Origin: Herbiconiux sp. SALV-R1
GTDB lineage: Bacteria; Actinomycetota; Actinomycetes; Actinomycetales; Microbacteriaceae
Direction: 5' to 3'
DNA: 64,000 nucleotides
NCBI RefSeq assembly: GCF_013113715.1
Contig: NZ_CP053344.1
Span: forward strand, 1,736,001-1,800,000
Below are positions 17,083 to 22,659 of the stretch, one piece after another (within the stretch, counting starts at the first letter, position 1; each line of letters opens with the position of its first letter). The translations under genes were made by a program, and so were the position numbers. The notes under the pieces were generated by a model. The model worked only from the letters and a program-made list of their open reading frames with translations, was not told the DNA's origin and searched no databases.

Positions 17083-19170
<2,088 letters not shown>

Positions 19171-19178
19171 CTCGGAAC

Positions 19179-19922
19179 CTACTCGCTCAGGGGCCTGGCC
19201 GCGATCGTGGCGCGGGCGTGGCGGGCGCGTTCGTCGAGGGTGTGGAGGGTGTCGGGGTCGGGGGTGGTGTAGTCGAGGCCGCGGCGGAGGCGGGCGGTGT
19301 CGAGGAGGGAGTCGGCGATGACGGGGTTGTTCGCCAGGAGGGGCCCGTGCATGTGGGTGCCGAGCAGGTTGCCCTCCCAGAAGCCCTCGTTGCCGGGGGT
19401 CTCGGTGTTGCCGCGGCCGTAGACGACGCGGCCGAGGGTCTCGTGCGGCCCGACCTCCACGAACGAGCCGCGGTTCTCGAAGCCCACCACGGGGCCGAGC
19501 CGAGGCGACTCGAGCACGAAGTCACCCACCACGCGGGTGCCGCCGTGCCGGGTGGTGACCGGGAACACACCGGCTCCCTCGAGCACTTCTCCGTTCTCGA
19601 GCGTCACGCTCTCACCGAGCAGTTGGAACCCGGCACCGATCGCCAGGAAGGGCACGCCATCGGCGGCGAGCTCCCGAAGCGACTCGGCGATGGCCAGCAC
19701 GAGCGGCTGCGCGATCACCTCGGCCGACACCGGCCCGCTGCCGATGAACACGAGGTCGGCGTCGGCGAAGCCGACGGGCTTTCCCTCGTCGTAGCGGGTC
19801 ACCTCGACGGGCAGGCCACGCCACTCCGAGCGGAGCTTCAGGATCTCGACGTTCCCCGCCTCGCCGTTCAACCCGAGCAGCCGGGGGAACAGGTGCAGGA
19901 TGCGCAGGGCACTGCCGGTCAT
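19179..19922 (-). CDS. gatD: GatD-like glutamine amidotransferase subunit lacking the catalytic Cys
   Basis: 247 residues from the ATG at 19922, which overlaps the murT stop (ATGA). In staphylococci and streptococci GatD hydrolyses glutamine and passes ammonia to MurT, which amidates the D-Glu of lipid II. The class I amidotransferase fold is recognisable: IGSGPVSAEVIAQ, VVGDFVLES, VGFENRG, and LLGTHMHGPLLANNP with the expected catalytic His (His192). The nucleophile elbow, ICGGYQFLG in S. aureus GatD (Cys94), reads AIGAGFQLLG here, so Gly96 replaces the Cys; the DNA codon is GGT. Glutaminase activity should therefore be absent. The assignment as a GatD homologue is firm, but the amidation function is doubtful. 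Confidence 0.85.
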   Translation of the reverse strand: MTGSALRILHLFPRLLGLNGEAGNVEILKLRSEWRGLPVEVTRYDEGKPVGFADADLVFIGSGPVSAEVIAQPLVLAIAESLRELAADGVPFLAIGAGFQLLGESVTLENGEVLEGAGVFPVTTRHGGTRVVGDFVLESPRLGPVVGFENRGSFVEVGPHETLGRVVYGRGNTETPGNEGFWEGNLLGTHMHGPLLANNPVIADSLLDTARLRRGLDYTTPDPDTLHTLDERARHARATIAARPLSE

Positions 19923-21241
19923 GCGGCACCCCCACCCTCGAGCTCCTTGAAGCCCAGGATCTTGCGGATGTCCATCATCTGCTCGTAGTTGAGGATCATG
20001 ACCTTGTGTCCGGTCGAGGGCTTCGGCAGCGCCAGGAACGCCTTGAGCGCCGCGCGCACGTCGAGATCGACCGACCCGACCGGAATGCCGAGGTAGCCGA
20101 AGCGCACCGCGAACTGCCAGGCCTTCGACCCGGTGATGCCGTCGACGTGGTCGAGGGCCGAGAAGTCGATGTCGTAGATCCACGACGGGTCGGGCGTTCC
20201 CTCGTCGACGGCGAGGAACACCTGCTCCGGCGCGACCTCCAGCGAGTCGAGGTTCAGCTGCAGGCTCGCCGGATTCTTCATCATGATGATCTCGATCTGC
20301 TCACCGTTCACCACGAGCATCTCCCCGCGACCGTAGACCGTGGCGAGCGAGTCGAGGGCTGCGGCCACGAGTGCCGGCTTGAAGCGGGCCCCGAGCACAC
20401 TCCGTGCCGCCGCGGCGGCACCGGCGGCGTCGAGCGCGTAGTGCAATCCTCGCGCCGGCAGCCGGACCTCGATCTCCGTGCGCTCGGCGACACCCGACGG
20501 CGGCAGCACGGCATTCTCGATCGAGAGCGTCGCGCGGGCGCCGTTCAGCGCCACCACTTCCACCGCAGCGGGCCGCGAACCCGGTGCCGCCGCCGACTCG
20601 CCGAAGCGGTCGGCCGAGGCGACGCCGTGGCTGGCGGGCTCCACGAGCGCGGGAACCCCGCCGAAGAACGACACCGCACGCCCGGCCTTGGCCGGGATCT
20701 GCTGGTCGAGGTCGACCAGGAAGTTGTCTTCGCGGTTGAGGATGAGCCCCTCGGTCGAGCTCGCGGCCACCCGGCCCAGCATGGCCGCCACGCGATCGGG
20801 CTCGTGATACCGGTTGAGCTGGTCGATCTGGATGTTGAGCAGCAGCACCGTCTTCGGCTTCAGCAGCTCGGCGAGGCGCGTGCCGTAGCCCTCGTCGACC
20901 TCCAGCACGGCGATGTCGGAGTCGAGCGTGCCCGACACCGACACCTCCGAAAGCAGCGCCGAGGCGATGCCCTGCGGCAGGTTGCCGCCCGAGGGGTTCG
21001 TGAACACCGACAGACCGTGCGCACGCACGATCGCGGAGAGCATGTTCGTCGTGGTCGACTTGCCGTTCGAGCCCGACACCGCGACGACTCCGTCGGGGAT
21101 CGCCGCGATGGTGCGCCCGAGGAACCCGGGATCGATACGCAGCGCGATGTTGCCCGGAATGGCCGACCCGCCGCCGCGCAACCGCGCAGCGACGCGCACG
21201 GCACGCCCGACGAGAACCGCCGCCGTGGTTCGCAGACCCAT
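19919..21241 (-). CDS. murT: MurT-like Mur ligase family protein without the zinc ribbon
   Basis: 440 residues from the ATG at 21241, 4 bases after the rpoD stop; an upstream extension of the frame is the shadow of rpoD. MurT activates the alpha-carboxyl of D-Glu in lipid II with ATP. The Mur ligase P-loop (VSGSNGKSTTTNML, residues 56-68) is intact, as are VLEVDEGYGTRL, LLNIQIDQLNRYHE and the C-terminal DUF1727 region MMKNPASLQLNL and DPSWIYDIDF. Asp351 in the last fits the Asp that completes the GatD catalytic triad in S. aureus. The four-Cys zinc ribbon normally inserted in the central domain is missing: the protein contains no Cys at all, and residues 195-225 are an Ala/Gly/Ser-rich loop. 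Confidence 0.87.
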   Translation of the reverse strand: MGLRTTAAVLVGRAVRVAARLRGGGSAIPGNIALRIDPGFLGRTIAAIPDGVVAVSGSNGKSTTTNMLSAIVRAHGLSVFTNPSGGNLPQGIASALLSEVSVSGTLDSDIAVLEVDEGYGTRLAELLKPKTVLLLNIQIDQLNRYHEPDRVAAMLGRVAASSTEGLILNREDNFLVDLDQQIPAKAGRAVSFFGGVPALVEPASHGVASADRFGESAAAPGSRPAAVEVVALNGARATLSIENAVLPPSGVAERTEIEVRLPARGLHYALDAAGAAAAARSVLGARFKPALVAAALDSLATVYGRGEMLVVNGEQIEIIMMKNPASLQLNLDSLEVAPEQVFLAVDEGTPDPSWIYDIDFSALDHVDGITGSKAWQFAVRFGYLGIPVGSVDLDVRAALKAFLALPKPSTGHKVMILNYEQMMDIRKILGFKELEGGGAA

Positions 21242-21245
21242 CGGC

Positions 21246-22562
21246 CTACTCGAGGTAGTCGCGCAGCGACTGCGATCGCGACGGGTGGCGCAGCTTCGCC
21301 ATCGTCTTCGACTCGATCTGACGGATGCGCTCACGCGTCACGCCGAAGGTGTCGCCGATCTGGTCGAGCGTCTTGGGCATTCCGTCGCCGAGTCCGAAGC
21401 GCATCCGGATGACGCCGGCCTCGCGCTCGGAGAGCGAGTCGAGCAGCGACTCCAGCTGCTTCTGCAGCATGGTGAAGCCCACGGCGTCGGCCGGCACGAC
21501 GGCCTCGGTGTCTTCGATGAGGTCGCCGAACTCGCTGTCGCCGTCTTCACCGAGCGGGGTGTGCAGCGAGATCGGCTCACGGCCGTACTTCTGCACCTCG
21601 ATGACCTTCTCGGGGGTCATGTCGAGCTCGCGGCTCAGCTCCTCGGGCGTGGGCTCGCGACCCAGGTCTTGCAGCATCTGGCGCTGCACGCGGGCGAGCT
21701 TGTTGATGACCTCGACCATGTGCACCGGGATGCGGATGGTGCGCGCCTGGTCGGCCATGGCGCGCGTGATGGCCTGACGGATCCACCACGTCGCATAGGT
21801 CGAGAACTTGAAGCCCTTGGTGTAGTCGAACTTCTCGACCGCGCGGATCAGGCCCAGGTTGCCCTCCTGGATGAGGTCGAGGAACTGCATGCCACGGCCC
21901 GTGTAGCGCTTCGCGAGCGACACGACGAGACGGAGGTTGGCACCGAGCAGGTGGCTCTTCGCGCGCTGGCCGTCCTTCGCCACCCACTGCAGCTCGCGCT
22001 TGGCGGAGGGGCTGAGGTTCTCGGTGGTCGCCAGCTTGTCTTCGGCGAACAGACCCGCCTCGATGCGCATGGCGAGCTCGACCTCTTCGGCGGCGTTGAG
22101 CAGCGCCACCTTTCCGATCTGCTTGAGGTAGTCCTTCACCGGGTCGGCGGTCGCGCCCGTGATGGTGGTCGAGTAGACCGGCACGTCGTCTTCGTCGTCG
22201 ACCAGCGAGAGCACCAGGGCGCCGCTCGGCAGCGTCTCCTCGGCCGCGGCAGGCGCCTTCTTGGCGTCGTCGTCGGTGTCGCCCTCCGCGTCCGTGTCGG
22301 CGGCGTCGCCCTCGGCGGTGTCGGTGTCGGAGTCGTCGGCGGCCGAGTCGCCCTCGGCGTCGTCGTCGAGCTCTTCCTCGTCGATCTCGTCTTCGCCCTC
22401 GTCGTCGACCTTCGAGGCCTTCTTCGGGCTCGCCTTGGCCGCCTTCTTGGCGGGTGCACGCTTCGCGGCGGCGCGCTTGGGCGCAGCGGCGCCCTTCACC
22501 GACTCCGTCTCGTCGGGCGCCACTGCCGTCTCGAGAGTGTCGGCGGACTTGGGGGTGGCCAT
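21246..22562 (-). CDS. sigA: Primary RNA polymerase sigma factor (SigA/HrdB type)
   Basis: 438 residues from the ATG at 22562, preceded by AAAGGTGA; an in-frame ATG five codons upstream has no ribosome-binding site. The N-terminal 140 residues are low complexity, first Lys/Ala-rich and then strongly acidic, as in other actinobacterial primary sigma factors. Then follow region 1.2 ([25 protein letters not shown]), region 2 ([56 protein letters not shown]), region 3, and region 4 with the helix-turn-helix [30 protein letters not shown]. It directs housekeeping transcription. murT and gatD follow within 4 bases and by overlap, so they probably share its transcript. Confidence 0.97.
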
Positions 22563-22659
22563 GAGATCACCTTTCATGCCACGTGCGGGAAGGGGATGAG
22601 TGCGTTCCCCGGCAAGCGATCCGTCACGTGAAGATGTTTTTGGACAGTACTAAGACCCA

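Follow-up and report, generated by a model that had tools for sequence, protein, structure and literature searches.

A MurT–GatD pair without glutaminase machinery as a candidate ligase for the B-type peptidoglycan bridge of Herbiconiux and its relatives

Background

The closest described relatives of the genes considered here form the lipid II isoglutaminyl synthase of Staphylococcus aureus and Streptococcus pneumoniae, in which GatD, a glutaminase, provides the ammonia with which MurT, an ATP-dependent Mur ligase, amidates D-Glu. Residues of S. aureus GatD have been assigned the roles of nucleophile (Cys94), active-site block (Tyr17), oxyanion hole (Gly60) and glutamine capture (Arg128), and the C94A, H189A and R128A variants are all inactive (PMC5871853). 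In S. pneumoniae MurT, Arg135 adjoins the opening toward GatD and loop 135-143 is placed where an ammonia channel could form, while the cysteine tetrad of MurT is given as present in 'some Actinobacteria' (PMC6085368). A pair of this kind lies in a stretch of 64,000 nucleotides from Herbiconiux sp. SALV-R1 (contig NZ_CP053344.1, positions 1,736,001 to 1,800,000), hereafter the window, between a sigA-like gene and a parE/gyrB-like gene. Its GatD has lost the nucleophile. As judged from sequence comparisons, its MurT, accompanied by a non-catalytic GatD, probably makes the bridge of B-type peptidoglycan by joining a free diamino acid to D-Glu at the alpha-carboxyl.

Loss of the glutaminase and retention of the ligase site

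A preliminary description of this DNA, made from its letters, had noted that Gly96 (codon GGT) replaces the catalytic Cys94. This is correct (the window GatD reads LAIGAGFQLLG at this place), and it is part of a loss that extends over the whole family. Residues were counted in 33 cysteine-containing and 126 cysteine-less GatD rows, some genomes being present twice as duplicate records; eight rows had been dropped beforehand, seven of them very divergent or cut and one of type II (see below), and among these eight a single one, L097, has Tyr17. In S. aureus numbering, Cys94 is found in 33/33 cysteine-containing rows versus 0/126 cysteine-less rows, Tyr17 in 33/33 versus 0/126 (one cysteine-less row being gapped there), Gly60 in 33/33 versus 4/126, Asp63 in 33 versus 31, His189 in 32/33 versus 70 of the 122 with a letter at this position, and Arg128 in 33/33 versus 119/126. 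Arg128, alone among these residues, is mostly kept, which would fit continued binding of an amino acid by GatD. Both window proteins contain zero cysteines, so that no alternative cysteine nucleophile is possible, a point that had been raised as a potential objection. That the glutaminase has been lost is as certain as sequence alone allows. The catalytic histidine and the MurT aspartate, also said to remain, do so in the window copy and not in the group at large, where the histidine is limited to the rows just counted and the aspartate is missing from whole clades.

The ligase side tells a different story. As had been described, the ATP site of the window MurT is kept: the protein retains GSNGKSTTT and DPSWIYD, with the P-loop and the Asp-Glu pair. 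More generally, the MurT partners of cysteine-less GatDs keep the P-loop, the Asp-Glu pair and the equivalent of S. pneumoniae Asn85, together with most of the GRGE and KNP regions, whereas Arg135 of the loop RDQ(L/M)DR has become Ile, Val, Thr or other residues (numbering from alignment with S. pneumoniae MurT). The absence of the MurT zinc ribbon, first presented as a companion of the missing nucleophile, is real but has no diagnostic value. Partners of cysteine-containing GatDs in several related families lack the ribbon too, and the MurTs of the cysteine-less types II and III keep ribbon-like cysteines; since ribbonless MurTs pair with cysteine-containing GatDs as well, ribbon loss says nothing about function, and it was rejected as a signal. 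A further cysteine-less class, with DQLHRW or DQVHRW in MurT, was seen at L040, L045, L256 and L279; the first two of these loci hold second copies, and sigA is absent from the 5 kb read there.

Could the pair be a decaying remnant without function? GatD is indeed heavily degraded in the small-genome relatives L094, L095, L150 and L164. Selection tells otherwise for the window: in comparisons with six rows from the same genus, among them two with identical values that are probably one genome, nonsynonymous divergence (dN) is 0.12-0.16 at a synonymous divergence (dS) of 0.47-0.64 for GatD, and 0.08-0.10 at 0.54-0.76 for MurT, dN staying well below dS in all ten pairs compared. Both genes are under purifying selection, which bears out the earlier view that the complex was retained rather than simply lost. 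Synteny is conserved too: a scan of at least 255 named relatives, of which the best 80 loci were used, had both sigA and parE in reach in 73 of these 80. A functionless relic is barely credible.

MurT follows the diamino acid of the bridge

The Herbiconiux wall is given as B2gamma, containing diaminobutyrate (DAB) in D and L form (PMC10011130). A species tree (parE+sigA) and a MurT tree were built from 49 named loci and the window, which sits among Herbiconiux in the former with starred support. The branching of MurT tracks the diamino acid of the bridge rather than the species. The residue at loop position 143 of the window MurT sorts the rows into three classes, Asn (14 rows), Asp (16) and Tyr (20), and all 40 rows that received a bridge label, 13 of them an assumed one, fit: the 23 DAB rows are Asn or Asp, the 17 ornithine or lysine rows Tyr. 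Restricting the set to labels taken from papers (Clavibacter, Subtercola, Agreia, Frondihabitans, Cryobacterium, Glaciihabitans, Frigoribacterium, Herbiconiux, Agromyces, Rathayibacter, Rhodoluna and, at genus level, Microbacterium) leaves 29 rows, 19 DAB and 10 ornithine/lysine, without mismatch. Under either set of labels there is a single change of bridge class on the MurT tree, versus seven on the species tree with all labels and three with paper labels. Independent pairs agree in six cases out of six (p 0.031, all labels). Although Agreia, Herbiconiux and Subtercola lie side by side in the species tree, with starred support, a MurT tree made to group the first with the other two is strongly rejected; a species tree with all Tyr rows in a single clade is also rejected (p 0.015). 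The Tyr class can be told from both DAB classes at five columns of MurT. One record, L134, bears the title Planococcus sp. APC 4015 and falls with Microbacterium in either tree; this title looks wrong.

The residue at position 3 of the stem peptide varies among these genera too, and MurT specificity might have followed this residue, with a product unrelated to the bridge. Two genera discriminate. The Agreia wall is printed as 'l-DAB connected to d-Orn', next to a neighbouring Subtercola with DAB (PMC5945732), and the Agreia MurT, despite this L-DAB, is of the Tyr type. Conversely, Rhodoluna lacicola is described with homoserine and a D-Ala-D-Dab bridge, and loci named Rhodoluna carry Asn- or Asp-type MurTs. 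In both cases MurT goes with the bridge and not with stem position 3, which makes the latter explanation very improbable. It might also be proposed that another amine, glycine for example, is joined to D-Glu, or that the acceptor is some other carboxyl, even outside the wall. Mur ligases and PF01996 ligases accept various amines, and glycine can occur in Microbacterium bridges; the tie observed here, however, opposes DAB to ornithine or lysine, and we hold this alternative to be improbable. Separately, the idea that glycine-plus-diamino bridges would need two cysteine-less copies was discarded, as 35 of 37 named genomes, three Microbacterium included, have one MurT (E <= 1e-20).

A free diamino acid as the substrate of MurT is the reading that we prefer. 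We infer the reaction, its donor and what GatD does in it as follows. MurT would use ATP to activate D-Glu of the lipid-linked precursor at its alpha-carboxyl and would join to this carboxyl a free diamino acid, diaminobutyrate in Herbiconiux, ornithine or lysine in other genera; the added residue would become the bridge between the peptides of B-type peptidoglycan. GatD would have ceased to make ammonia and be kept as a structural, perhaps amino-acid-binding subunit. We find this amino-acid ligase role rather probable, in view of the association just described, of the swapping at the locus described below and of chemistry by homology.

The slot between sigA and parE

Within Microbacteriaceae, two kinds of pair exist, canonical and cysteine-less, and they differ in place. 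The pair beside sigA lacks the nucleophile across the family, and sigA adjoins 22 of 24 cysteine-less loci of type I, whereas among 12 loci of the cysteine-containing kind no sigA or parE was present in the stretch read (that of L038 being too short to tell). Five sampled genomes (G050, G060, G113, G149 and G189) carry both kinds. The change of role proposed earlier must be amended in this respect: the loss of the glutaminase, the retention of the ligase site and a tie to the bridge amino acid are supported, but a single complex changing its job in place is not, because the two kinds of loci differ and genomes with both are found.

The interval between sigA and parE, the slot, often holds further genes. 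Genes of the Alr family lie between gatD and parE at 15/20 loci of the Asn class, 11/27 of the Tyr class and 0/27 of the Asp class (loci with parE in reach). At the level of genomes, at least two genes with the Alr C-terminal domain are present in 9/10 of the Asn, 13/14 of the Tyr and 1/10 of the Asp class, as well as in 7/7 genomes with a CofE-like gene in the slot and 1/11 outgroup genomes (60 genomes tallied, 8 of which fit no class and were left out); Asn plus Tyr against Asp gives a Fisher p of 1e-5, kinship being ignored. Rathayibacter and Agromyces, of the Asp class, are presumed to have only L-DAB, in which case the number of racemases would track the isomer. G013, of the Asn class, and the Rhodoluna-like G009 have a single Alr gene each, which speaks against this. 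The slot racemase is often split into a full Alr-like open reading frame and a second, mostly C-terminal-domain one (L108:7007-8790 and L325:7745-9353, where the second has 182 and 237 amino acids), which suggests a two-subunit racemase.

What replaces the pair where it is missing is informative. In the slot of 7 of the 11 MurT-less genomes examined, read through stretches around their Alr genes that in the other four (G017, G045, G047 and G075) end short of sigA, a CofE-like ligase (PF01996) is found. The order in these seven is sigA, CofE-like ligase, an ATP-grasp gene (in six; both copies scanned match PF14397), Alr pieces, parE. This view of the slot excludes G012, G021, G043 and G064, genomes with the cysteine-containing kind only, in which it lies beyond the reach of such stretches. 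The CofE-like gene passes the Pfam gathering score in all five copies scanned out of the seven (29.6 to 56.9 bits versus 25), and slot copies stay under the NCBIfam CofE cut-off (37.1 and 30.3 versus 180.65). Elsewhere among the loci read, it occurs only beside type III and type II cysteine-less MurT–GatD pairs (L201, L249). A replacement of Mur type was considered and rejected: Mur_ligase_M genes number five in 14 of 16 MurT-less genomes (six and seven in the others) versus six in 8/8 genomes with the pair, so that 14 of the 16 have no extra Mur ligase. In Microbacterium (code g78, recognized by its MurT/GatD motifs) the pair is patchy, with a strong GatD match in 3 of 10 g78 genomes among the matches listed; G195 and G388 have no pair, and a CofE-like cassette instead.

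The slot appears to be reserved for a bridge ligase, the true amidase, where present, being located elsewhere, because cysteine-containing loci lack sigA, the cysteine-less type I stands beside it and the CofE-like gene is swapped in. A broader proposal is that the slot is a cassette site which would set the wall chemotype through interchangeable, partly non-homologous ligase modules, namely cysteine-less MurT–GatD of several types or a CofE-like ligase, the latter often with an ATP-grasp protein, and often with alanine-racemase-like genes, each module installing a particular B-type bridge residue. Exchange of modules between conserved flanks would then account for the abrupt changes of bridge chemistry from one sister genus to another. 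We see about as much reason to accept this proposal as to doubt it.

These observations bear on the most conservative alternative, that MurT is still an amidase, using free ammonia to amidate D-Glu, with GatD as a mere scaffold. S. aureus MurT–GatD is indeed described as taking ammonia directly at pH 8.5, GatD still being required, and 'amidation or hydroxylation of D-Glu' is listed among the muropeptides of Clavibacter michiganensis (PMC9603630). Yet an amidase would not predict that MurT tracks the bridge diamino acid, nor the presence of Alr genes in the slot, nor that of a gene of an amino-acid-ligase family in the slot of MurT-less genomes; furthermore, the gate arginine and the tyrosine plug of the ammonia route are gone. 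A persisting amidase is, we believe, unlikely, though not negligible.

Distribution and points to be weighed

In other families of the same order as Herbiconiux, 20 of 20 GatDs read have the cysteine, the GGG oxyanion strand and the YGD motif. The GatDs of the 80 named loci comprise 77 without cysteine, two loci without any profile-detectable GatD and one with cysteine, at L177; the latter belongs to a Ca. Saccharibacteria contig with a canonical MurT–GatD pair. In a survey of the phylum, where the cysteine-less GatD profile matched 214 of 396 genomes, 30 + 21 loci were read. Among the 30 best, the five of Microbacteriaceae are cysteine-less, and the other 25 comprise 24 with cysteine and one with serine. 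The 21 others (19 genomes), picked mostly for weak scores, comprise 11 of other cysteine-less types (II/III), seven with cysteine and three that are not GatD pairs, having no MurT. The serine case, L217 (G902, family code f47), has an otherwise canonical oxyanion strand and is the only such GatD outside Microbacteriaceae among those read. Type II (L180-L185, L187, L188, L191 and L240-L249) occurs in Microbacteriaceae and in two families of the phylum (f34, f55), while L186, L189 and L239 resemble a third type. L097 (G005:C25), a type II-like pair, has a Firmicute-like make-up, and the rest of its contig carries genes of actinobacterial appearance; the pair looks acquired.

To be sure, a number of points weigh against the ligation of a bridge diamino acid by the cysteine-less pair. 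The link between gene and bridge is putative. The modified D-Glu of C. michiganensis, already cited, is the main contrary point: in a genome of this species (from another strain than that of PMC9603630) there is a single MurT match, and the GatD of the slot is cysteine-less. The loop residue was chosen after inspection of the table, prompted by assumed genus chemistry, most papers having been read afterwards, and the clades tested were named only after the trees were seen. Microbacterium was labelled by genus though its species differ. Of the 40 bridge labels, 13 are assumed, in nine genera (Leifsonia, Pseudoclavibacter, Galbitalea, Plantibacter, Amnibacterium, Curtobacterium, Okibacterium, Mycetocola and Microcella), and paper labels leave just three independent pairs, all three agreeing (p 0.25). 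The Salinibacterium wall is printed with Lys and Orn, and two Salinibacterium rows, which are not neighbours in the species tree, are split (L111 Tyr, L173 Asn); they were kept unlabelled, as a possible exception. The Rhodoluna-like G009 has one Alr gene. Cysteine-less pairs of other types exist in the phylum relatives L239-L249, for which we know of no B-type wall. Finally, a GatD-like match of any kind is present in only 185 of 239 Microbacteriaceae genomes, and of 28 family genomes without one, 24 lack MurT as well, four having a match. The cysteine-less pair is not the universal B-type ligase: the initial suggestion that it could be the missing enzyme of this cross-linking cannot stand in that form, given these 24 genomes and the CofE-like gene in MurT-less slots.

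The locus in the window

The features of the locus are collected in Table 1. Both genes lie where they had been placed, right behind the sigA-like gene, which is named from its own sequence; gatD and murT overlap by four bases and a gap of four bases separates murT from the sigA-like gene. On the other flank lies the parE/gyrB-like gene, a copy of which in a relative matches DNA_gyraseB. GatD scores 73.7 bits with GATase_3 (Pfam cut-off 27), MurT 41.6 with Mur_ligase_M (cut-off 24) and 30.8 with MurT_C (cut-off 25), and both stay far under the cut-offs of the NCBIfam isoglutaminyl-synthase models (GatD 146.5 versus 450, MurT 110.4 versus 800). The window murT is the sole MurT_C match in its own genome at E <= 0.001.

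Table 1. Genes and residues of the locus, in window coordinates
Feature	Position	Strand	Remark
parE/gyrB-like gene, type IIA topoisomerase B subunit	17083..19170	plus	other flank of the slot, beyond gatD
gatD-like gene, 247 amino acids	19179..19922	minus	GATase_3 fold without catalytic Cys; overlaps murT stop
murT-like gene, 440 amino acids	19919..21241	minus	Mur ligase; ATP/Mg site intact; no Cys
sigA-like gene	21246..22577	minus	upstream flank of the slot
GatD His192	19347..19349	minus	equivalent of catalytic His189, His of MHGP; present in window copy
GatD Arg130	19533..19535	minus	equivalent of glutamine-capturing S. aureus Arg128
GatD Gly96 (GGT)	19635..19637	minus	at S. aureus Cys94 position
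GatD GSGP	19731..19742	minus	replaces GGG oxyanion strand, with Ser62 in place of S. aureus Gly60
GatD Asn19	19866..19868	minus	at S. aureus Tyr17 / S. pneumoniae Tyr30 (active site or channel block there)
MurT Asn143	20813..20815	minus	at S. pneumoniae Asp139; genera with diaminobutyrate have Asn/Asp, those with ornithine/lysine Tyr
MurT Ile139	20825..20827	minus	at S. pneumoniae Arg135 (gate facing GatD)

Significance and comparison with known systems

B-type cross-linking was reportedly classified by Schleifer and Kandler in 1972, and since that classification it has been used to describe genera of Microbacteriaceae. No assignment of a ligase to the B-type bridge was found in the literature searched, a search that did not include CofE-like genes in wall synthesis. 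Among the papers listed that name two of MurT, GatD and Microbacteriaceae, none is on the subject by its title; the one with both MurT and Microbacteriaceae, PMC8698727, is a study of a sludge microbiome. The question can now be tested directly, on an identified gene pair, at a position that may govern specificity and on a further candidate ligase from this slot. If the reading proposed here is true, a glutamine amidotransferase has turned into an amino-acid ligase, and a classical taxonomic marker is tied to one locus.

Three known systems invite comparison. Ligases of the CofE family (F420-0:gamma-glutamyl ligase, PF01996), which form amides using a free amino acid, occupy the same slot in MurT-less relatives; to our knowledge they have no relation to MurT. 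The Mur ligases MurC–MurF likewise activate a carboxyl in an ATP-dependent manner, and an amino acid as the incoming amine is what we would predict for the window MurT. They have an N-terminal domain where the MurT type has a truncated N-terminus (PMC6113224), and the latter comes with a GatD partner. The MurT–GatD lipid II isoglutaminyl synthase of S. aureus and S. pneumoniae (PDB 6gs2, 6fqb and 5n9m) is homologous over both subunits. Unlike this synthase, the window pair has no cysteine nucleophile, oxyanion glycine, tyrosine plug, MurT gate arginine or zinc ribbon, and it sits between sigA and parE; what they have in common is the arrangement as an adjacent gene pair, the ATP/Mg residues, the KNP motif and the equivalent of GatD Arg128.

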